From Leptolyngbya sp. CCY15150 (GTDB taxonomy: Bacteria > Cyanobacteriota > Cyanobacteriia > RECH01), in contig NZ_JACSWB010000161.1 of assembly GCF_016888135.1 (NCBI RefSeq), positions 1 to 39,304 on the forward strand: 39,304 bases of DNA, written 5' to 3'. Numbering within the stretch: position 1 is the first letter of the stretch; every line of letters begins with the position of its first letter. The notes beneath the pieces are model-generated. The model saw only the letters and a list, made by a program, of their open reading frames with translations, was not told the DNA's origin and ran no database searches. The translations under genes were made by a program, and so were the position numbers. This document shows, one piece after another, positions 3,001-39,051 of this stretch.

Positions 3001-6000
3001 TGGGATTGCTCAACTGGACAGTGAAGATGGCAGCGGTGGTGTCGCCACTATTTCCCTCGGTGACCGATGTATCTAAGATGGCGATCGCTGGCTGATCATC
3101 ATCATCCAAAATAGTGACCGTGCCAGAACTAGCCGTTCCATCTAAGGTTGCTCCCCCTCCTCCAGTGACACCGTTCAAGACAACATTGAAGGTTTCTGCA
3201 TCCGGCTCGTTCGTATCATCCCCATTCACCGTCACCGTGATCAACTGCTGGGTCTCACCCGGTGCAAAGACCAGTACCCCATCTACCCCATCAACGATAG
3301 GACTAAAATCTGCCGTCCCCGCATTCAACTCTCCGTCGGAACGGGCGGTACCATCGTTCGTGCTGTAGGTGACGGTCAGCTCCGTCTGACTGGGATTGCT
3401 CAGTTGCACTGTAAAAACGGCAGTGGCTGTCTCGCCGCTATCCCCTTCATTGACGGTGACAGCATTGTTGAGAAGGGCGATCGCTGGTGGCCCGTCGTTA
3501 TTAACAATCGTGCCCGTGCCCACTCCGTCGGCCACCGTTGCGCCCGTAGGATCAGCGAGGTTGATCGTGAAGGCTTCATTCCCTTCATTCACGTCGTCCC
3601 CATTCACCGTAATGGTGATCAATTGCTGGGTTTCACCGGGGGCAAAGACTAAGGTTTCGTCGATGACCGGGACATAATCGCTGCCGCCCGCTGCAACAAC
3701 ACCGCTTGAACTGGCTGTGCCATCCCCGGTGCTGTAGGTGACGGTGACCTCAGATTGGCTGGGGTTGGTCAGTTGTACCGTGAAGACAGCATTGGTCGTT
3801 TCCCCACTATTGCCCTCCACCACCGATGTATCCAGGATGGCGATCGCTGGCTGAGCATCATCTTCAAGAAGGGTGCCGGTGACCTGTGGGGTGCTGAGGG
3901 TCGAACCGTTGCTGGGGTTGCTGAGATTGAGGACAAAGGTTTCATCGACCCCGTCTTCAAAGGTGTTGTCTCCGTTGACCGTCACCGTCAGGCGTTGGAT
4001 CGTTGAGCCAGGCGCGAAGGTTAACAGGCCGGTTCTGGGCGTATAGTCCGCCGTCCCAGCCTCAATCTCACCACCGCTCTCCGCCGTCCCGTCTGCCGTT
4101 TCATAGGTAACCGTGACGGGCGCTTGGCTAGGGCGATCGAGGAGGAAGGTAAAAACGGCTCCAGGTGAATTACCCAAGGCACCTTCATTCACCGCCACAT
4201 CCTCAACGGAAATGATGGGGGCCGGATCATCATTGAGGATCGTGCTTGTTCCCACAGAGCTGCCGCCTGTGAAGGTGGCATTGTCTGCACCTGGATCTAG
4301 CGATAGCTGTAGCGTTAGGGTTTCATTCGGTTCAAAAATCTCATCCGCCGCTGTGGGCACCACCACGGTAAGCTGCGTTTCCCCCGGTGCAAAGGTGAGG
4401 CTGCCTTGGGTAGCGGTATAGTCGTTATCGCCATCCGGCTCAGGCGTCAGGGGTTCAGCGATCGCTGTCCCATTTACCGTGGTGTAGTTGATGACAACGG
4501 GGGTGGTGCCCTCCCGCGATAGCTGCACGATAAAGGCGAGATCCGTACCCTCCGCTTGGCTATCGCCCAGCACCGTCACAATCGGCACACTGTCATTATC
4601 CCGAATCGTCACCACACCTTGAGTAATGCCATCATTCAGGTTGACGCTGCCAGGCACTGGCGTACCTGTGAGGTTCACGAAAAACTGCTCGTTGACCTCT
4701 TCCACCACATCATCCACAACGGTGATCGTCAGCAGTGTGGAGGTTGTGCCCGCCACAAACGATAGGGTGCCTACGCGTGGGTCATAGTCTCGGGTGCCAT
4801 CAATCACAGCCCCTGTGCTGACAGCCGTATCATCAGCCGTCGTATAGGTCACCCGAGTGAGCTCATCACTGGCATTGCTGAGGGTCACCTCTAGCACCGC
4901 TGTTCCTGCATCTTCAAGAACCGTGAGGCTATTAATGCTCACCACCGGAGCCAGCTCATTGTCGGTAATGCTGACCGTACTGATGCGATCTGGGCCAAGC
5001 TCTACCCCATCTCCGCTAGGATTACCCGTGACGCTAAAAATCTCTAGGGAAAAGGTTTCGGGGACGCCATTTTTCTCATAGATATCGTCATCAAGGATGG
5101 TAATTTCAATGACTTTTTGGGTTTCTTGTTCCAGAAACACAAGAGAGGGTGTGTCGGGGAAGAAATAGTCTTCTCCATCGGTGGCGGTACCGTTGTTGAG
5201 GGTATAGTTCACCGTAATCTGCCCCGCAGCCGGGCCGCTTAAGCCGACGGTGAAGCGCGCCACCGCACCCACTCCTTCCGTGACCTGCACCCCTGTATTG
5301 AGCAGATTGACCACCGGTGCCGGATCATTATCCGTAATATTGCCAAAACCATTCAGGATGGAATTGGTCGAGTCAGCCCCAGAGACAATTGAGAGATCAA
5401 CGGAAAAAGTTTCGCTTTCAAAGGGATCACCATCACGTGCCTCGTCAAGATCATCATCAATGATCGGAACGGTGATAAAGGCTTGGGTGCCTCCCGATGG
5501 AATGGTGAGCCGCCCCGACACAGCCGTATAGTCTTCCCCAGCGGTTGTACTGAAATCACTGGTATTAAAGTCCAGCACCACTGGATCTGTAGCTGGCTCT
5601 GACAAGGTCACGGTGAAGACAGCATCGCCCACATCTTCTTCCAAGGTGAGATCGGAGATGCTGACAGTTGGTATAAAGCAGTGGGGATAGGTCTGTTGGG
5701 TGGCAGGATTCACCACAACGGGCGTATGTACTTTTCCCAGGGTGACATCTAGATCCCAGGTGCCGCCTAGGGATGGATGACCAATCGGGGTCGTAGAGGC
5801 GGCGATATTTGCCCCCGTTAGAACCTGCAGTTGCCGGATAAACCCGTACCCCGTCACGCCGTCAGCCACCTGGCAGCCGTAGATCAAGATATCGGCCTGG
5901 GGCGCTAGGGCCGTAGACCAACGCTGCAGCGATCGCCCGTAGCGACCTAGGGTGCTGGTGGTGAGGAGACTATGGCCCAGATGCAGTTGGCCGCGATCGC

Positions 6001-6256
6001 CATGGGTGATCAGGTGAAGAGCTTGGATCTGCTGATTGTAGTGCTGCAACAGCTCCGTGATCTGCTCAATCCCGTCCTGCTGCGGATGGAGCACATACAC
6101 CACCACGCCAGGCCGCAGGCCGTCGATCAACTGCCCATAGTCTTGTACGGATGGATCAATGACGAGCAACTCCAACCGATCAGAGGCGATCGCTGATGTA
6201 GGTAGACCAGAAGCGATCGCACCGGACTGCGTCAAATCATCCCGAAAGTTAGTCAT
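1..6256 (-). CDS. DUF4347 / Calx-beta repeat giant surface or secreted protein (C-terminus outside window)
   Basis: The reading frame starts at ATG 6256 (MTNFRDDLTQSG) and stays open for 2,085 codons to the window edge, so the C-terminus is missing. Residues about 27-190 look like DUF4347, with the landmarks LHLITHGDRG (His85) and ILIYGCQVADG (Cys128). About 15 Calx-beta units follow at a spacing of about 360-380 bp (about 122 aa). Each carries the family signatures: TEGxxG, VxVDYxT, a GGDDY-like block, TFAPGExQ, a run ending ExDETF, and a terminal xxDD. Calx-beta domains bind calcium and are common in large adhesins and secreted proteins of cyanobacteria. No classical signal peptide is visible, which is usual for DUF4347 proteins; type I secretion through a C-terminal signal is likely but that end is not in view. 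Many plus-strand ORFs here are antisense shadows. Function as adhesin, motility or matrix protein is inference. Confidence 0.93.
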   Translation of the reverse strand, partial: MTNFRDDLTQSGAIASGLPTSAIASDRLELLVIDPSVQDYGQLIDGLRPGVVVYVLHPQQDGIEQITELLQHYNQQIQALHLITHGDRGQLHLGHSLLTTSTLGRYGRSLQRWSTALAPQADILIYGCQVADGVTGYGFIRQLQVLTGANIAASTTPIGHPSLGGTWDLDVTLGKVHTPVVVNPATQQTYPHCFIPTVSISDLTLEEDVGDAVFTVTLSEPATDPVVLDFNTSDFSTTAGEDYTAVSGRLTIPSGGTQAFITVPIIDDDLDEARDGDPFESETFSVDLSIVSGADSTNSILNGFGNITDNDPAPVVNLLNTGVQVTEGVGAVARFTVGLSGPAAGQITVNYTLNNGTATDGEDYFFPDTPSLVFLEQETQKVIEITILDDDIYEKNGVPETFSLEIFSVTGNPSGDGVELGPDRISTVSITDNELAPVVSINSLTVLEDAGTAVLEVTLSNASDELTRVTYTTADDTAVSTGAVIDGTRDYDPRVGTLSFVAGTTSTLLTITVVDDVVEEVNEQFFVNLTGTPVPGSVNLNDGITQGVVTIRDNDSVPIVTVLGDSQAEGTDLAFIVQLSREGTTPVVINYTTVNGTAIAEPLTPEPDGDNDYTATQGSLTFAPGETQLTVVVPTAADEIFEPNETLTLQLSLDPGADNATFTGGSSVGTSTILNDDPAPIISVEDVAVNEGALGNSPGAVFTFLLDRPSQAPVTVTYETADGTAESGGEIEAGTADYTPRTGLLTFAPGSTIQRLTVTVNGDNTFEDGVDETFVLNLSNPSNGSTLSTPQVTGTLLEDDAQPAIAILDTSVVEGNSGETTNAVFTVQLTNPSQSEVTVTYSTGDGTASSSGVVAAGGSDYVPVIDETLVFAPGETQQLITITVNGDDVNEGNEAFTINLADPTGATVADGVGTGTIVNNDGPPAIALLNNAVTVNEGDSGETATAVFTVQLSNPSQTELTVTYSTNDGTARSDGELNAGTADFSPIVDGVDGVLVFAPGETQQLITVTVNGDDTNEPDAETFNVVLNGVTGGGGATLDGTASSGTVTILDDDDQPAIAILDTSVTEGNSGDTTAAIFTVQLSNPSQTEVTVDYSTANITTSTGDNGAAGGDDYVPVVGNTLTFAPGETQQLITIAVNGDDVNELDETFSITLINPTTNATLDDGLGIGTILDDDNVPVVNISNATVLEGNTGDISTAVFTVSLSNPNQAEVTVAYTTEDGTALAGGNGALGLDDYQPVVDGVLTFAAGETQQFITITVNGDGVNEEDETFAVRLSPPTGGPTLGDNPGTGTIIDNDDPPTIAISNASVLEGNLGDTSNAIFTVSLSNPSQDDVTVTYSTADGTASSGGNIAAGEGDFEPVVDGALTFTAGETQRLITIAVNGDGATEGTETFNVNLTSTSAGGGIADGTGVGTIVDNDGPPAIAILGTSVTEGAINETTNAVFTVSLTNPSSEAVTVNYTTANITASTGGALAAGGDDYLPVLGGTVTFAAGEIEQLITITVNGDGANEGDETFSVTLSDPNGGGANLVGGGESAIGTIVDDDPQPAIAILGSSVLEGDDLTTTNAIFTVQLSNPSQTDITVDYNTTDGSALAGSDPAVGGNDYEAASGSLTFVAGETLQLITVTVNGDGVSEPSETFNVVLDNLQGNATVSNDTGVGTIGDDDAQPTITIDSRTSLEGDSGQITNAIFTVRLTTPSQSEVTVNYNTANGTASFGGNPVLGEDDYVPVVDGVLTFAPGAVQQLITITVNGDDVDEADETFDVILSNASGGANLEPDTQATGTIIDDDDPAVITISNASVLEGDLGETSNAVFTVSLSSPTPGEVSVTYSTADDTASSGGDVATGEGDYTPVTDEVIVFAPGETERLITIAVNGDGANEEDETFTVTLNNLTGDATPGDLVGVGTIVDNDGPPAIAISNAVVDEGDSGDTVNAIFTVQLSNPSQNEVTVDYSTANGTANAGGEVNAGTDDYTPLTGTLTFAPGETTALITVTVNGDDVDELDETFTVTLADPSGGAELSGGVQVGTGTITDDDDQAAIAILGTSVLEGDATTTTSAIFTVQLSNPSQTDISVDYNTTDGSASALG

Positions 6257-7029
6257 GGCGGCACCAAATACTACGTTGACCTACCCCTAGGGCATACAGA
6301 TTACAGGCAAACAGCAAGCATCAAACCAAGCATTCCTAATCCTACAGATGCAACTAGCATCCGAGGTTTCTACAGGGCGAACTACAGCCTAAGTGAACCA
6401 CAGCCTAAGAGTATGGCTCAAATAGTCCTGACCTGCACGTCATGGACTTGTAAAAGAAACAACAACGGGAAACGCGTTCTCTACACCCCAAAACCTATCA
6501 ACCAGACCCATGCGAGCGATCGCCCATGTGTCTGGCCCTGTTGGACTCTGAGCAACCCCCTCAAATGCACCTGAGGCTATCCGCAGCCGATCTATGTCTG
6601 CCACACCTTCTAGCGACCATCACGAATGCCGGACTGACTTAATAGAACACGAAACAGCAACAAGCGACAACATGTCCCCCTAGGCTGGTTAGCCTAAGAG
6701 AGTGGGCGGCGATGGATGGGTTGACCTAGACCATGGATTGCCTAGGAAGCACAGTCAAGTTAGGGAACTGATGTGTACTCATCTACTCCATCAGAGCTGT
6801 CCCTGTTGTTCATTCATCCTCATGTTGATGACCGTATTCACCGATCCAGTTGTGACTCAAATCTTTTAAGACCAAGCTTATCAGCGCCTCATAGCTTGAA
6901 CGCTGGGGCATGACATGCTGCCGGACTCACCCGTGATGGCGCTGATCTTCAGCCGTCTTGCTGCTGTCAAAAACAGAACAGTATTAGTCTGCCCTATTTT
7001 TTCTGAAAGACGACATCGGTCGGAAACTT
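6257..7029. other. 773-bp intergenic region without a gene
   Basis: The stretch lies between the giant protein's start and the stop of the uracil-DNA glycosylase gene, both on the minus strand. No ORF with a convincing ribosome binding site was seen. It holds the tandem repeat at 6379-6409 and a small inverted repeat at 6681-6696 (TAGGCT, 4-nt loop, AGCCTA). HIP1 is absent, apart from a related CGATCG core near 6519, which fits a regulatory or neutral spacer. Confidence 0.6.
6379..6409. repeat. tandem 15-bp direct repeat upstream of the Calx-beta gene
   Basis: GAACTACAGCCTAAG (6379-6393) and GAACCACAGCCTAAG (6395-6409) differ at one base and repeat with a 16-bp period, about 125-150 bp upstream of the start codon at 6256. 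They may be binding sites for a regulator or a chance duplication. No promoter boxes could be assigned confidently between them and the gene. Confidence 0.5.
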
Positions 7030-7740
7030 TTACGGGGACTTGGGCGGAATTTGGCGAATTTCATCGAGCTTAGCCCGCACGGTTTGAATGTCTTGCCACA
7101 TCAGCCACTTAGGACTGCCCTTATCACGGGAGGCGTTGCGCAGCAGGTAGGCAGGATGGAAGATGGGCATACAGAGACGATTTTCCCACTCCAGCCACTG
7201 CCCACGAATTTTGGTGATGCCGCGCTTATCGCCAATCAAGCCCCGCACGGACGACGCGCCGGTGAGCAAAATGATCTTGGGATCCACTAGGCGAATTTGC
7301 TCTAGCAAGTAGGGACGGCAGGCATCCATCTCCGTAGCGGTGGGAGTGCGGTTGCCCGGTGGCCGGCATTTGACAATGTTGGAAATGTAGACGTCTTGCT
7401 GACTGTCGATATTCACCGCGGCCAGAATTTTTTCCAGCAACTGCCCCGATCGCCCCACAAATGGCTGCCCAGCTTCGTCTTCATGCTGCCCTGGCCCCTC
7501 ACCCACGATCATAATCGGGGCCTTAGGATTGCCCCGCCCCACTACGGCATGGATGCGAGTTCCCCCCAGTTCGCAGCGCTGACACTGGCGACAATGGTGC
7601 CCCAAGGTCTCCAGATCGGTATAGGTGCCGGGAGGAATGGGCAGTTTGGCGCTGGTGGGAATGCGATCTACGTCCACGGAGGGCGGCGGCGCTGGGGTGG
7701 AGAGGAGATCGAAGAGTGGGATTTGTTCAGGGTCAGACAT
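7030..7740 (-). CDS. family 4 uracil-DNA glycosylase ([4Fe-4S])
   Basis: This 236-aa protein removes uracil from DNA to start base-excision repair. The family 4 pattern is clear: iron-sulfur ligands C53 and C56 (CX2C), C125 and C141 (CX15C). The uracil-binding motif GEGPGQHEDEAGQPFVGRSG covers residues 80-99, and the catalytic-loop motif HPAYLLR covers 195-201. The first 45 residues are a proline-rich, probably disordered extension. ATG at 7740 gives the usual length. The DUF482 gene lies 149 bp upstream on the same strand, so co-transcription is possible but not required. Family identity is strong; in vivo substrate range is not shown by sequence. Confidence 0.93.
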   Translation of the reverse strand: MSDPEQIPLFDLLSTPAPPPSVDVDRIPTSAKLPIPPGTYTDLETLGHHCRQCQRCELGGTRIHAVVGRGNPKAPIMIVGEGPGQHEDEAGQPFVGRSGQLLEKILAAVNIDSQQDVYISNIVKCRPPGNRTPTATEMDACRPYLLEQIRLVDPKIILLTGASSVRGLIGDKRGITKIRGQWLEWENRLCMPIFHPAYLLRNASRDKGSPKWLMWQDIQTVRAKLDEIRQIPPKSP

Positions 7741-30478: not shown

Positions 30479-30925
30479 GGATTGTTCTCCTTAGCAGTGC
30501 GGCATGACGTCTTCTTGTCCACCTTTTCCTAGGATATCGCGCCAGCCCATGCCCTTCAGAGAGCGATCGCCCTCATGGTTCCCGCCAATCTGCCCTGTCC
30601 CCGCCTGAGAGTCAGCCGACTGATCGATAGTACCACTTCATCTGACGAGAGAATCAGGGTTTGATCGCCTTTTGTCCGAGATAGAGTGAATGAAGAGTAC
30701 TAGGTAGAGGGTCATCATTTAGCAACCCCTGGGTTGGATGTCCGTTGCATAAATCTGAAAACTGAGTAGCTCATTTCAGTCAGCATCATGGCTGCAAAGC
30801 GGAAGCAAGATTGGTATAAAGGTGAATGAATGATTCTAGTTATTTCCGTAGGATAAGAACAATCAAGTCACTAAGTAAACGCAAACCTTCGTTTACGAGT
30901 GCTTATTGAATACGGAGAGACTTTT
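30479..30925. other. intergenic region, including leader of the 203-aa protein gene
   Basis: No long ORF on either strand looks like a gene. It must hold the promoters of the divergent ALDH and 203-aa genes; no convincing -35/-10 pair was picked out. The notable element is the inverted repeat at 30875-30896. Confidence 0.5.
30875..30896 (+). promoter_or_regulatory. inverted repeat before the 203-aa protein gene
   Basis: GTAAACG (30875-30881) and CGTTTAC (30890-30896) form a perfect 7-bp inverted repeat with an 8-nt spacer, ending 29 bp before ATG 30926. It may be an operator or a leader hairpin controlling translation. Confidence 0.45.
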
Positions 30926-31537
30926 ATGACTGCAACCATCAGCCGCGCGGATCGGGCTAGCACATTCCCATCCTCCATGCGTCAAACTTCAGGATTTCAG
31001 CCTTCGCCCTTGTCTAGATCTTCTGATCTATCCACGCGATCCGTCCGTTTTCAACATCGTTCCAGTGCAAATCGATTTGGTTTAACACCTACCCCTAATG
31101 CAGTCTGGAACAACATTACAGCAGTCTTTCGTGGACGCAATCCTCGTGTGACTGCAGTGGGTGGCAATCGTGGAATCCAATCAGCCGCCCAGGTTCGATC
31201 TATGCATCAGCCGGGTACGTGGGAATTTTCTTCGAACGGACAATTCCGATTTACGCCGCGTGGATTAGGAATTATTGCCAGAACGGATTTATTTCCAATT
31301 GTAGGGCGGTACAGTAGGCAGGGTAATATAATCCGCTTTTCAGGTGCGCGGTCATCGGCCAATTTAGTATCGATCAATACCTCATCGATTCGGGGATGGT
31401 TTTCCCTAGGGACTGGAGGAGCGCGCGTTATCCAGCAAACCTCAAGAACTGCTGTATCTGGATTTGGTGCTGGTACCTTTGGCGCTGGTTCCAATAGTAT
31501 CGTTTCCATGAATCTGCGCATGGTGCGGGTTAGCTAA
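30926..31537 (+). CDS. cysteine-free 203-aa protein of unknown function
   Basis: I chose ATG 30926 (MTATISRADRASTFPSS) because GGAGAG is 6 nt upstream; the frame opens to 30899. The first 60 residues are rich in Ser, Arg, Pro and Gln and look disordered. Residues about 95-200 form a beta-rich domain: GTWEFSSNGQFRFTPRG, then IVGRYSRQGNIIRFSGARSS, a Ser/Gly strand set and SGFGAGTFGAGSN. The alternating pattern recalls a small beta-barrel or lipocalin-like fold, which is inference. There is no cysteine and no classical signal peptide. The only linked gene is a parvulin-like PPIase 168 bp downstream. It is AT-richer than its neighbours and contains no HIP1. Confidence 0.7.
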   Translation: MTATISRADRASTFPSSMRQTSGFQPSPLSRSSDLSTRSVRFQHRSSANRFGLTPTPNAVWNNITAVFRGRNPRVTAVGGNRGIQSAAQVRSMHQPGTWEFSSNGQFRFTPRGLGIIARTDLFPIVGRYSRQGNIIRFSGARSSANLVSINTSSIRGWFSLGTGGARVIQQTSRTAVSGFGAGTFGAGSNSIVSMNLRMVRVS

Positions 31538-31569
31538 TCCTGTCTGAACGAAGCGTATCCCAAATGCTT

Positions 31570-31608
31570 GATTTTTTGCCTAAACCTCTTCCGAAGAGGA
31601 TGAAAATC
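31570..31608 (+). other. hairpin between the 203-aa and PPIase genes
   Basis: CCTCTT/AAGAGG (31585-31599) with a 3-nt loop forms the tip. GATTTT (31570-31575) can pair with AAAATC (31603-31608) as an outer stem. It has no T run on the + side. It could slow or protect the RNA between the two genes. Confidence 0.4.
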
Positions 31609-31629
31609 GCAAAAGTAGCCTAGACTATC

Positions 31630-31657
31630 ACTCCCGTCCCCACAAAGTGGCGGGAGT
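31630..31657 (+). other. strong hairpin, possible partial terminator or processing site
   Basis: ACTCCCG (31630-31636) pairs with CGGGAGT (31651-31657); CCAC/GTGG adds a 4-bp inner stem around AAA. It stands 47 bp before the PPIase start and lacks a proper T run. This suggests a stabiliser or attenuator that sets the ratio of the two proteins. Confidence 0.45.
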
Positions 31658-31704
31658 AGATAATTTCTATCTGTCGTCAGTCATTAACCTTTGTCTATAA
31701 AGCC

Positions 31705-32499
31705 ATGAGTACCAAAACGCGATCGCTGGATGAGTTAGCCCATACTCTAACCATCAACCAACAACCTGTATCACTTCAGCATATCTTGCGTCAATTTCGC
31801 AGGGCAGGCAAGCTAGACACAGTCATCACCGATATTCTCAGCCTCTATGTGATTGAGCAAGAGCTGAATCGATTTCATATCTCTCAGAAAGAGCGCGTCA
31901 TCGAAGCATCGATGGTTCAGTATCGTGAACAGTATGGTTTGATGGATGAAGGCACGTTTCAAGAATGGTTGCTGAATCGGGGCTTGGATGCTGCTAGTTT
32001 TTGTGAACATATAGAATTCAACGTCACGTTAAAGACCTTCAAAGCGGAGTTGGCTGCGCCCAAACTTCTTGAAACCTTTATCGAACACAAGCTGAATCTC
32101 GACCAGGTTGTGCTCTCTCGGATTACGGTGGATCATCAAGACCTTGCTGACGAACTCAAATTGCAACTCGAAGAAGGCGCAGACTTTGAGGTATTGGCAC
32201 GAGAATATTCTTGCTCAGAGGATGCGCTGACCCATGGCATGATGGGTATTTTAAGTCGTGCGGATGTTCAAAATGTGTTTGGAATAGATGCCTATCAAGC
32301 AACGGTAGGTGAGTTTATGAGTCCTATTCAGCGGGACGGATGTTGGCATCTCCTGCGCGTTGATGGGCTTCTACCTGCGGCACTTGATGATACTGTGATC
32401 CCTTACTTGCAAGAACAGATATTTGAGCAGTGGCTAGCCACGCGAATTCAATCACTACAGGTGGATGTTTGTCTGAGTCAGGCTACCTTAGTTTACTGA
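31705..32499 (+). CDS. parvulin-like peptidyl-prolyl isomerase (cytoplasmic, exporter-associated type)
   Basis: This 264-aa protein has no signal peptide. Residues 1-125 are helical (LDTVITDILSLYVIEQELNRF, FQEWLLNRGLDAASFCEHIEF), like a SurA-type chaperone module. Residues about 130-235 are a PpiC-like domain: VVLSRITVDHQDLADELKLQ, then LEEGADFEVLAREYSCSED, GMMGILSRADV and CWHLLRVDGLLPA. The canonical GGxLG of parvulins is degraded to GMMGIL, so activity may be reduced. Similar cyanobacterial proteins are encoded beside HlyD and peptidase-ABC exporters, which would make this a substrate chaperone; no such exporter is within the window. The only candidate client is the 203-aa protein upstream. 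Recognition is by pattern. Confidence 0.8.
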   Translation: MSTKTRSLDELAHTLTINQQPVSLQHILRQFRRAGKLDTVITDILSLYVIEQELNRFHISQKERVIEASMVQYREQYGLMDEGTFQEWLLNRGLDAASFCEHIEFNVTLKTFKAELAAPKLLETFIEHKLNLDQVVLSRITVDHQDLADELKLQLEEGADFEVLAREYSCSEDALTHGMMGILSRADVQNVFGIDAYQATVGEFMSPIQRDGCWHLLRVDGLLPAALDDTVIPYLQEQIFEQWLATRIQSLQVDVCLSQATLVY

Positions 32500-32942
32500 T
32501 CAACCAAGTTAAGCTTGTCCTGGTACATGCTTTTGGGTGTTGCCGACTAAAGATATGAAAGCTTATGGATCGTCAGCGCAAATCCTATTGTGATTCGACT
32601 TGTGGTTCGACTGCCCATCCTTGGTTTGTTGTTGAGAGGAGAGGATCATTCGGTGTTACTTAGATGAGAGATGAATTTCCTGAACCAACTCCTGCATCCT
32701 GGACTGTTCAGACATGGATTCATCTCAGACATCAGCAACGTCCCTGGAAGTCCTAGACTAAGGTCTGGGCGCAGGAGCAACCCTGGGAGCATGCCCACGC
32801 TCAACGTAGGAACGATAGGAGGTCGTGGGAGCGCCTCGCTCACGGTTCCTTCGCACACATCATCTATCGATTCAGCAACGCCGATCATTCATAACCTATC
32901 AGAGGTAGCGAAACTAGAGCCTTGACTCAATACTAGAACTAG
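32500..32942. other. 443-bp region with a tandem repeat and an uncertain broken frame
   Basis: TGTGATTCGACT (32589-32600) and TGTGGTTCGACT (32601-32612) are tandem copies differing at one base. From ATG 32664 a frame reads MRDEFPEPTPASWTVQTWIH and stops at TAG 32756; the same frame then continues open, Trp-rich, for about 44 codons (for example KVWAQEQPWEH and SWERLAHGSFAHIIYRFSN). A purine-rich GAGAGGAGAGG precedes it by about 20 nt. A decayed gene is possible; overlapping frames at 32671 (+) and 32888 (-) look like shadows. No call is made. Confidence 0.35.
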
Positions 32943-38241: not shown

Positions 38242-39051
38242 CTAATAGTTTTTGATCATCAATTCCTGCCCTTCTGCAGCAGACGTTTGCTTGTAGTTAT
38301 TCATGCCATATTGCAGCGTCCATTCAACAATTGTTGCGAAACTAAAAAGCTCCCGAATCTTGGGAGAATCATCATAGGTAATCAGCCATTGATGGGGACA
38401 TTCCCGCATAATTTTGGCGAAGCGCTCATGGTCAAAATCGAGGTGCAAGTTTCCCTTCACGCCGTAAAGCTTAGACTTGGTGGCACTTAAGTAGGGTGGG
38501 TCTAGAAAAATAAAAACTCCTTCACCATCCTGACGGATCAACGTTTCATAGTCGCCGTTGGTGACTAAGGTTGATGACAAGTGAGCACCCAGTTTTCTTA
38601 AACGGTCAATCGATGAATCGGTGAAACGATGTTCAAATGCATGTTGGGAATATCCTCCAGAATCTACTGTTCCAGAAAACGTGATGCGATTGAGGACAAA
38701 GAAGCGTACTGCTCGTTCAAACTCGGTTAAATCTTGGTTGGTCTGAGTCAACGTTTTAAAGAGTTCCCGACCATTGGAGGTATTGTTCTTGATCCTTTCT
38801 ACTTCGTCAGCAAGAGCATGGATGTCTTTCTGCACATATGTCCAGAAGTAATAGAGATCAACGTTGAGATCGTTAATCCAGTAAGACTGGATGCGATCGC
38901 CGAATGCTTGTTTAACCGCTAAAAATACCGATCCACCACCGATAAAAGGCTCTCTATACTCATGAATCGTTAAGGGTATATGGGGAACTATCTTGCTGAT
39001 CGCCTTGGACTTTCCACCTGGGTAACGCAAAGGACTTTTATCGTGAGGCAT
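38242..39051 (-). CDS. D12-class adenine-N6 DNA methyltransferase
   Basis: This 269-aa enzyme has the alpha-group order of motifs: LRYPGGKSKAIS (10-19), SAM motif REPFIGGGSVF (33-43), ND at 60-61, FVLNRITFSG, catalytic FLDPPYLSA (182-190, DPPY at 184-187) and a C-terminal segment ending EGQELMIKNY. This is the M.DpnII/Dam/EcoRV type. The recognition sequence cannot be read from this. GATC, which lies inside every HIP1 site, is one possibility known for cyanobacterial Dam-like enzymes. No restriction gene is seen beside it, though the right flank is cut by the window edge. Confidence 0.92.
   Translation of the reverse strand: MPHDKSPLRYPGGKSKAISKIVPHIPLTIHEYREPFIGGGSVFLAVKQAFGDRIQSYWINDLNVDLYYFWTYVQKDIHALADEVERIKNNTSNGRELFKTLTQTNQDLTEFERAVRFFVLNRITFSGTVDSGGYSQHAFEHRFTDSSIDRLRKLGAHLSSTLVTNGDYETLIRQDGEGVFIFLDPPYLSATKSKLYGVKGNLHLDFDHERFAKIMRECPHQWLITYDDSPKIRELFSFATIVEWTLQYGMNNYKQTSAAEGQELMIKNY

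Follow-up and report, generated by a model that had tools for sequence, protein, structure and literature searches.

The window analysed here, a stretch of 39,304 nucleotides from Leptolyngbya sp. CCY15150 (NZ_JACSWB010000161.1, positions 1-39,304), contains a rare cassette of two genes, both of them real, that encode a 203-aa beta-barrel-like protein and a 264-aa parvulin-like PPIase. We consider it fairly probable that this module is an acquired cargo-plus-chaperone cassette whose product leaves the cell through an exporter encoded elsewhere in the genome; binding of the two proteins, export and the identity of the exporter are what we infer in this reading. Such a cassette suggests that a chaperone of its own can accompany an exported protein, which then uses an exporter that the cell already has. 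The features of the locus are collected in Table 1, and throughout we use G for genomes, L for fetched loci and C for contigs (C207, C141 and C289 being contigs of the CCY15150 genome).

Table 1. Features of the two-gene module and its surroundings (positions are those of the window).
Feature	Positions	Strand	Remarks
Variable segment (module and intergenic repeats)	30610-32885		Not present between the same flanking genes of sister genome G003
7-bp inverted repeat, GTAAACG-n8-CGTTTAC	30875-30881 / 30890-30896	+	Upstream of first gene; fold z = -2.5
Ribosome-binding site, GGAGAG	30914-30919	+	6 nt before ATG 30926; sequence
203-aa candidate exported protein	30926-31537	+	ATG start; no Cys, no Lys, 25 Arg, pI 12.0
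Residues 1-61, disordered Ser/Thr/Arg/Gln-rich extension, candidate targeting region	30926-31108	+	Model, composition
Residues 62-203, up-and-down beta-barrel domain	31109-31534	+	Homologue alignment and model
Intergenic hairpin 1, CCTCTT-CCG-AAGAGG	31585-31599	+	Sequence, fold
Intergenic hairpin 2, TATCACTCCCG...CGGGAGTaGATA	31626-31662	+	No U-tract; candidate partial terminator
264-aa SurA/PrsA-architecture parvulin-like protein, proposed private export chaperone	31705-32499	+	No signal peptide, pI 4.7
N-terminal helical chaperone-like module, residues 8-132	31726-32100	+	AF2 model, mean pLDDT 90
Parvulin domain, residues 134-223, active-site positions degenerate	32104-32373	+	Pfam, alignment, model
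Three adjacent dispersed repeats, about 90, 60 and 60 bp	32652-32882		Many copies in genus; downstream edge of variable segment

A search of 390 cyanobacterial genomes recovered only four believable relatives of the 203-aa protein, namely three stand-alone proteins (52% identity in G158, 'Filamentous cyanobacterium CCP2', 41% in G172 and 41% over the core in G026) and one domain within a larger protein of G292. In G158 and G172, which belong to another family than Leptolyngbya sp. CCY15150, a PPIase gene comes directly after that of the homologue, with order and strand as in the window, and these pair-linked PPIases are the closest relatives of the 264-aa PPIase (53% and 48% identity, respectively). 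Three of the four stand-alone copies, window included, adjoin a PPIase in this way; the G026 homologue has no adjacent PPIase and lies next to a transposase-like ORF. The functional link between the two genes proposed in the preliminary description came through this search, because homologues of the two proteins, far from never being neighbours, are adjacent in two further genomes. In a maximum-likelihood tree of 78 family members, the three paired PPIases form one clade (support 99/90, present in 200 of 200 bootstrap trees) that is separate from the exporter-linked PPIases, even those of the same genomes. The 203-aa and PPIase proteins also order the genomes alike by similarity, and the gap between the paired genes measures 167 nt in the window and 141-167 nt across the three pairs. 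With about five such PPIases per roughly 5,000 genes, we estimate the chance of adjacency with equal order and strand in G158 and G172 at less than about 1e-7. No ABC exporter or HlyD gene was found beside any of the three pairs in the fetched flanks.

Two other matches to the 203-aa protein, in G019 and G040, were set aside as chance, as they have stops inside, E values of about 0.01 and vanish when a profile is used. Searches for sources of the module among plasmids and among viral contigs returned no match, and a scan of genome contigs with the 203-aa alignment found only CCP2. Four kb from the pair in this genome (locus L042) we observed a gene for GrrM, a cyclophane-forming radical SAM maturase (5683-6879, minus strand; TIGR04261, E=9e-165) and, beside it, what is likely its precursor, rich in Trp and Asn (6988-7422, minus strand).

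The 203-aa protein was initially described as Cys-free, beta-rich and of no recognised family, and all three points held: it has no match in Pfam (and hence no RTX repeats detected there) or NCBIfam and no significant relative of solved structure by sequence, and its model places an antiparallel beta-barrel after the disordered N-terminal residues. Confidence in this model, which draws on four sequences only, is modest (overall pLDDT 63, mostly 70-90 in the barrel). The barrel has no significant fold match, and the nearest folds to the low-confidence model are avidins and PsbO, the avidins with a Foldseek E of about 0.05 and a query TM-score of about 0.3 or less. The domain carries the signature WxF..N..FRFTP.G.G...R.DLFP.VG, and its core has 0 Lys and 17 Arg. 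A Cys-free, Lys-poor core and a high pI are common to the relatives, the G026 homologue having one core Lys, and the N-terminal extension is conserved among them above shuffled sequence. Cys-free, Lys-free cores are more usual of exported proteins, and this Arg-rich, barrel-like protein is probably exported. Residues 1-61 contain no Sec/Tat-like hydrophobic stretch, and no Gly-Gly is conserved within residues 1-62 across the homologues. The lack of RTX repeats does not exclude type I export, because non-RTX substrates of this pathway such as HasA exist.

We also considered a common N-terminal export signal for the 203-aa family and the S8 and PPC candidate cargoes. Resemblances such as 'FQP...S...SSS' and 'RLTSALP...VVRL' can be picked out by eye, but this candidate was rejected because cross-family alignments were mostly no better than shuffles (p 0.03-0.9), and the N-terminus resembles those of S8, PPC and other candidate cargoes in composition only. 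A 1048-aa protein of G292 (L045, 7474-10617, minus strand) carries the barrel domain behind a Sec-like signal, which argues that the domain works outside the cytoplasm. The architecture of this protein is unusual, with the signal and barrel domain followed first by a weak TPR and then by a C-terminal CHAT domain.

The second gene had been described as encoding a PPIase-like protein, and this is borne out by a Pfam Rotamase domain (PF00639, E=1.8e-9, 38.9 bits against a cut-off of 21.7) and by fold matches to parvulin structures, the best Foldseek matches being PrsA (4wo7, E=7.6e-11) and SurA (9hg5, E=2.4e-8). The model of this PPIase, in which an N-terminal helical module is joined to a parvulin domain, is of high confidence (pLDDT 90). 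With E. coli PpiC as reference, the catalytic set of His/Cys-or-Asp/His is not present in the 264-aa PPIase. The first catalytic His is replaced by Arg in the window and G172 PPIases and stays His in G158, Cys41 is Ser in all three paired PPIases, and the second His is retained in two of the three. Neither a Sec signal peptide nor a lipobox was found in the 264-aa PPIase, which has no hydrophobic N-terminal segment; its most hydrophobic near-N-terminal 15-mer scores 1.29 at residue 37. The protein is SurA/PrsA-like, lacks a signal peptide and has a degenerate active site, and is best read as a putative cytosolic holding chaperone.

It is conceivable that the pair stays in the cytosol altogether, with the basic barrel binding nucleic acid or another polyanion and being folded or regulated by the acidic PPIase, and with no export at all. 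This would agree with the lack of a signal peptide in both proteins and with the absence of an exporter gene from all three loci, and the pI of 12 would equally suit a nucleic-acid binder, which counts against export. The contrast between pI 12 and pI 4.7 might seem to add to this, but we dropped it as a sign of a specific pair because PPIases of this family are acidic as a rule. We regard a purely cytosolic pair as rather unlikely: in G292 a Sec-like signal precedes the barrel, the rest of the PPIase family is associated with exporters and probable exported cargo, and the core has the composition more usual of exported proteins.

The PPIase family is present in 315 of the 390 genomes, and both the family and its link to exporters are already known: Wang, Fewer and Sivonen (2011) named its rotamase proteins 'SurA' in cyanobacterial bacteriocin clusters of groups I, II and VI, which carry HlyD and, in group VI, also S8-peptidase proteins (PMC3140520). 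We examined the gene neighbours of 80 family PPIases and found that about 47 adjoin an ABC842 exporter, two a 1011-aa exporter, nine DUF4347 proteins and one a PPC protein, which, together with that study, upholds the initial statement that such PPIases usually stand beside HlyD/ABC exporters. Among the closest relatives outside the paired clade, the PPIase almost always lies directly before the ABC exporter in the fetched loci, and exporter-linked members share 37-42% identity with the 264-aa PPIase. The exporters consist of an N-terminal cNMP-type region (CAP_ED), a C39-like domain, a membrane domain and an ATPase. Operons of the types HlyD-PPIase-ABC-further ORF (L080, L093) and PPIase-ABC-S8 protein (L063, L066, L067) match groups I, II and VI, the S8-protease proteins of group VI corresponding to the latter three loci (PMC3140520).

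The CCY15150 genome holds three further PPIase paralogues. One is followed by an 869-aa ABC protein on C207, another is accompanied by a 1011-aa ABC protein and a 531-aa HlyD (type_I_hlyD above cut-off) on C141, and the copy on C289 has no adjacent exporter. The earlier suggestion that the missing exporter could be encoded elsewhere therefore finds two PPIase-linked exporters in the same genome. By eye, the catalytic Cys is gone from the C39 domain of both; one example reads MNTAAACLTM where active C39 peptidases have D-C-G. This loss makes the candidate exporters comparable to HlyB, whose C39-like domain (CLD) tethers unfolded cargo (PMC8277102). The C289 PPIase (L047, 7575-8432) and that of G002 (L091, 2191-3048) lie between ABC and RND transporter genes, an arrangement kept within the genus.

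In the cargo-plus-chaperone reading, the product of the first gene would be a beta-barrel protein that is strongly cationic, Cys-free and Lys-poor and whose N-terminal extension is unstructured, and that of the second a cytosolic SurA/PrsA-shaped parvulin of a family tied to CAP_ED/C39-like ABC exporters. Type I substrates are threaded unfolded, a state for which the RTX-free substrate HasA depends on SecB (PMC8277102). Because of this need for unfolding, a small barrel without RTX would meet the same problem, and the 264-aa PPIase may hold the 203-aa protein unfolded in the cytosol, as SecB does with HasA, before passing it to a type I exporter, either the C207 PPIase-ABC or the C141 PPIase-ABC-HlyD system. 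As the C39 domains of these exporters are without the catalytic Cys, the cargo would keep its whole N-terminus on exit, barring trimming by another protease. Folding would then take place outside the cell or at its surface, where the protein would probably attach to anionic matrix or surface polymers, as its highly positive charge suggests.

The loss of the catalytic Cys also bears on whether the 203-aa protein could be a bacteriocin-like product, cleaved by a C39 exporter at a Gly-Gly-like site in its N-terminus and served by the PPIase as a maturation factor ('SurA'). Cationic, disordered at the N-terminus and paired with a member of a family known from cyanobacterial bacteriocin clusters (PMC3140520), the protein has some of the expected features, and the 264-aa PPIase has a weak NCBIfam match to TIGR04500, 'putative peptide maturation'. 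However, this match is sub-threshold (58 bits against a cut-off of 180), the N-terminal region of the homologues has no conserved Gly-Gly, both PPIase-linked exporters of the genome are without the catalytic Cys, and a protein of 203 aa that includes a conserved folded domain is large compared with double-glycine peptides. We therefore hold a bacteriocin-like product to be quite improbable.

The base composition of the module, its absence from a sister genome and the placement of its nearest relatives in another family all bear on its history. As had been noted, the pair is AT-richer than its flanks: the 203-aa and PPIase genes have a GC of 50.2% and 46.3% and a GC3 of 0.41 and 0.46, whereas most of the other window genes checked have a GC3 of 0.54-0.72 (codon and GC3 statistics cover window genes only). 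The preliminary description was right in counting one HIP1 site, although its position is 31719 instead of 31722; the scarcity of HIP1 alone is weak evidence because 5.8% of window stretches of module length have one or none. In G003 the same two flanking genes, for an aldehyde dehydrogenase and a methyltransferase, are adjacent with 601 unrelated bp between them; the flanks are 89-95% identical, with identity ending at 30609 and restarting at 32886. This absence from the same site fits the acquired cassette initially proposed, but gain here and loss in the sisters both agree with it; we consider acquisition likelier than repeated loss. The repeats at the downstream edge occur in dozens of copies across the genus. 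Elsewhere in the window, a Dam-type DNA adenine methylase-like gene (38242-39051, minus strand; GC 43.7%) is possibly another acquired gene.

The two hairpins between the genes and the 7-bp inverted repeat before the first start codon, both pointed out initially, were recovered as well; the inverted repeat is possibly an operator or a 5' UTR hairpin, and the joint fold of the hairpins has a z of -3.9. The gaps of the window, G158 and G172 all hold hairpins stronger than shuffles (z -3.9, -3.0 and -3.6, respectively), which share no sequence similarity, and no known RNA element was found in the gaps with Rfam. A reasonable reading is that the hairpins form a partial terminator, which would keep the level of the chaperone below that of its cargo. 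That the two genes were inserted together by accident, leaving the PPIase as a dispensable orphan paralogue without a functional tie, would suit the variable site with its dispersed repeats, hairpins suggestive of separate transcription and a genome with three other paralogues, of which the C289 copy lacks an adjacent exporter, but is decidedly improbable given that the genes have stayed paired in two families, at 41-53% identity and in different contexts, in the same order and with a distinct PPIase clade, and that gap length and gap hairpins recur.

DUF4347-linked PPIases, which lie directly upstream of very large DUF4347 proteins, make up 9 of the 13 rows of one clade, and this looks like a separate cargo-linked chaperone branch. 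The loci are L062, L065, L069, L070, L071, L074, L075, L076 and L078, the last with two tandem family PPIases (4047-5673) before a large DUF4347 protein. A wider and more tentative idea, which we find plausible but would not favour, is that export is modular: branches of one cytosolic parvulin-like family would each serve one cargo class (the 203-aa beta-barrel, DUF4347 giants, S8 proteins) and deliver to shared CAP_ED/C39-like exporters, with cargo specificity provided by the chaperone and not by a leader peptide common to the cargoes. Type I export in cyanobacteria is poorly mapped: exporters are widespread, but their genes frequently lie on their own, and for this reason the majority of cargoes are unknown. 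If cargoes can be recognised by a chaperone gene next to their own, PPIases of this kind would offer a handle on exported proteins across the phylum. If the reading is true, type I secretion would also have a cytosolic anti-folding factor beyond SecB, one that is parvulin-shaped and may not need isomerase activity. In the open-licence literature we did not find the barrel family, its pairing with a dedicated PPIase clade or the matching of PPIase clades to cargo classes.

Several known systems resemble the cassette in part. Like the avidin-like and lipocalin-like barrels, the modelled barrel is up-and-down and antiparallel, but the match is of low coverage and there is no sequence relation. 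The 'SurA' of bacteriocin clusters belongs to the same family and is likewise a signal-less rotamase, normally beside a long-type CAP_ED/C39 ABC exporter (PMC3140520). In contrast, the CCY15150 locus has no exporter or HlyD, its PPIase belongs to a clade of its own, the partner is a beta-barrel and not an exporter or peptide precursor, the fetched flanks of the three pairs contain no adjacent C39-type ABC exporter or HlyD, and the 203-aa protein does not have the Gly-Gly leader of a precursor. SurA and PrsA foldases combine an N-terminal helical chaperone module with a parvulin domain, as the 264-aa PPIase does, but the latter lacks a signal peptide or lipobox, is predicted to be cytosolic and has its active-site His/Cys positions replaced. 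In Synechococcus elongatus, the C39-type transporter PteB exports small proteins, EbfG, to the matrix or medium. It depends on its catalytic Cys, and the EbfG proteins bear Gly-Gly motifs (PMC4997328); neither feature is seen in the candidate exporters and the 203-aa protein of CCY15150. By hypothesis, the cassette works like SecB-HasA of Serratia, where the cargo of a type I exporter has no RTX repeats and is kept from folding by a chaperone in the cytosol (PMC8277102). The likely exporter in CCY15150 has a C39-like domain, which HasD does not, and whereas SecB is a general chaperone of unrelated fold, that of CCY15150 would be a private one of parvulin type, encoded next to its cargo.
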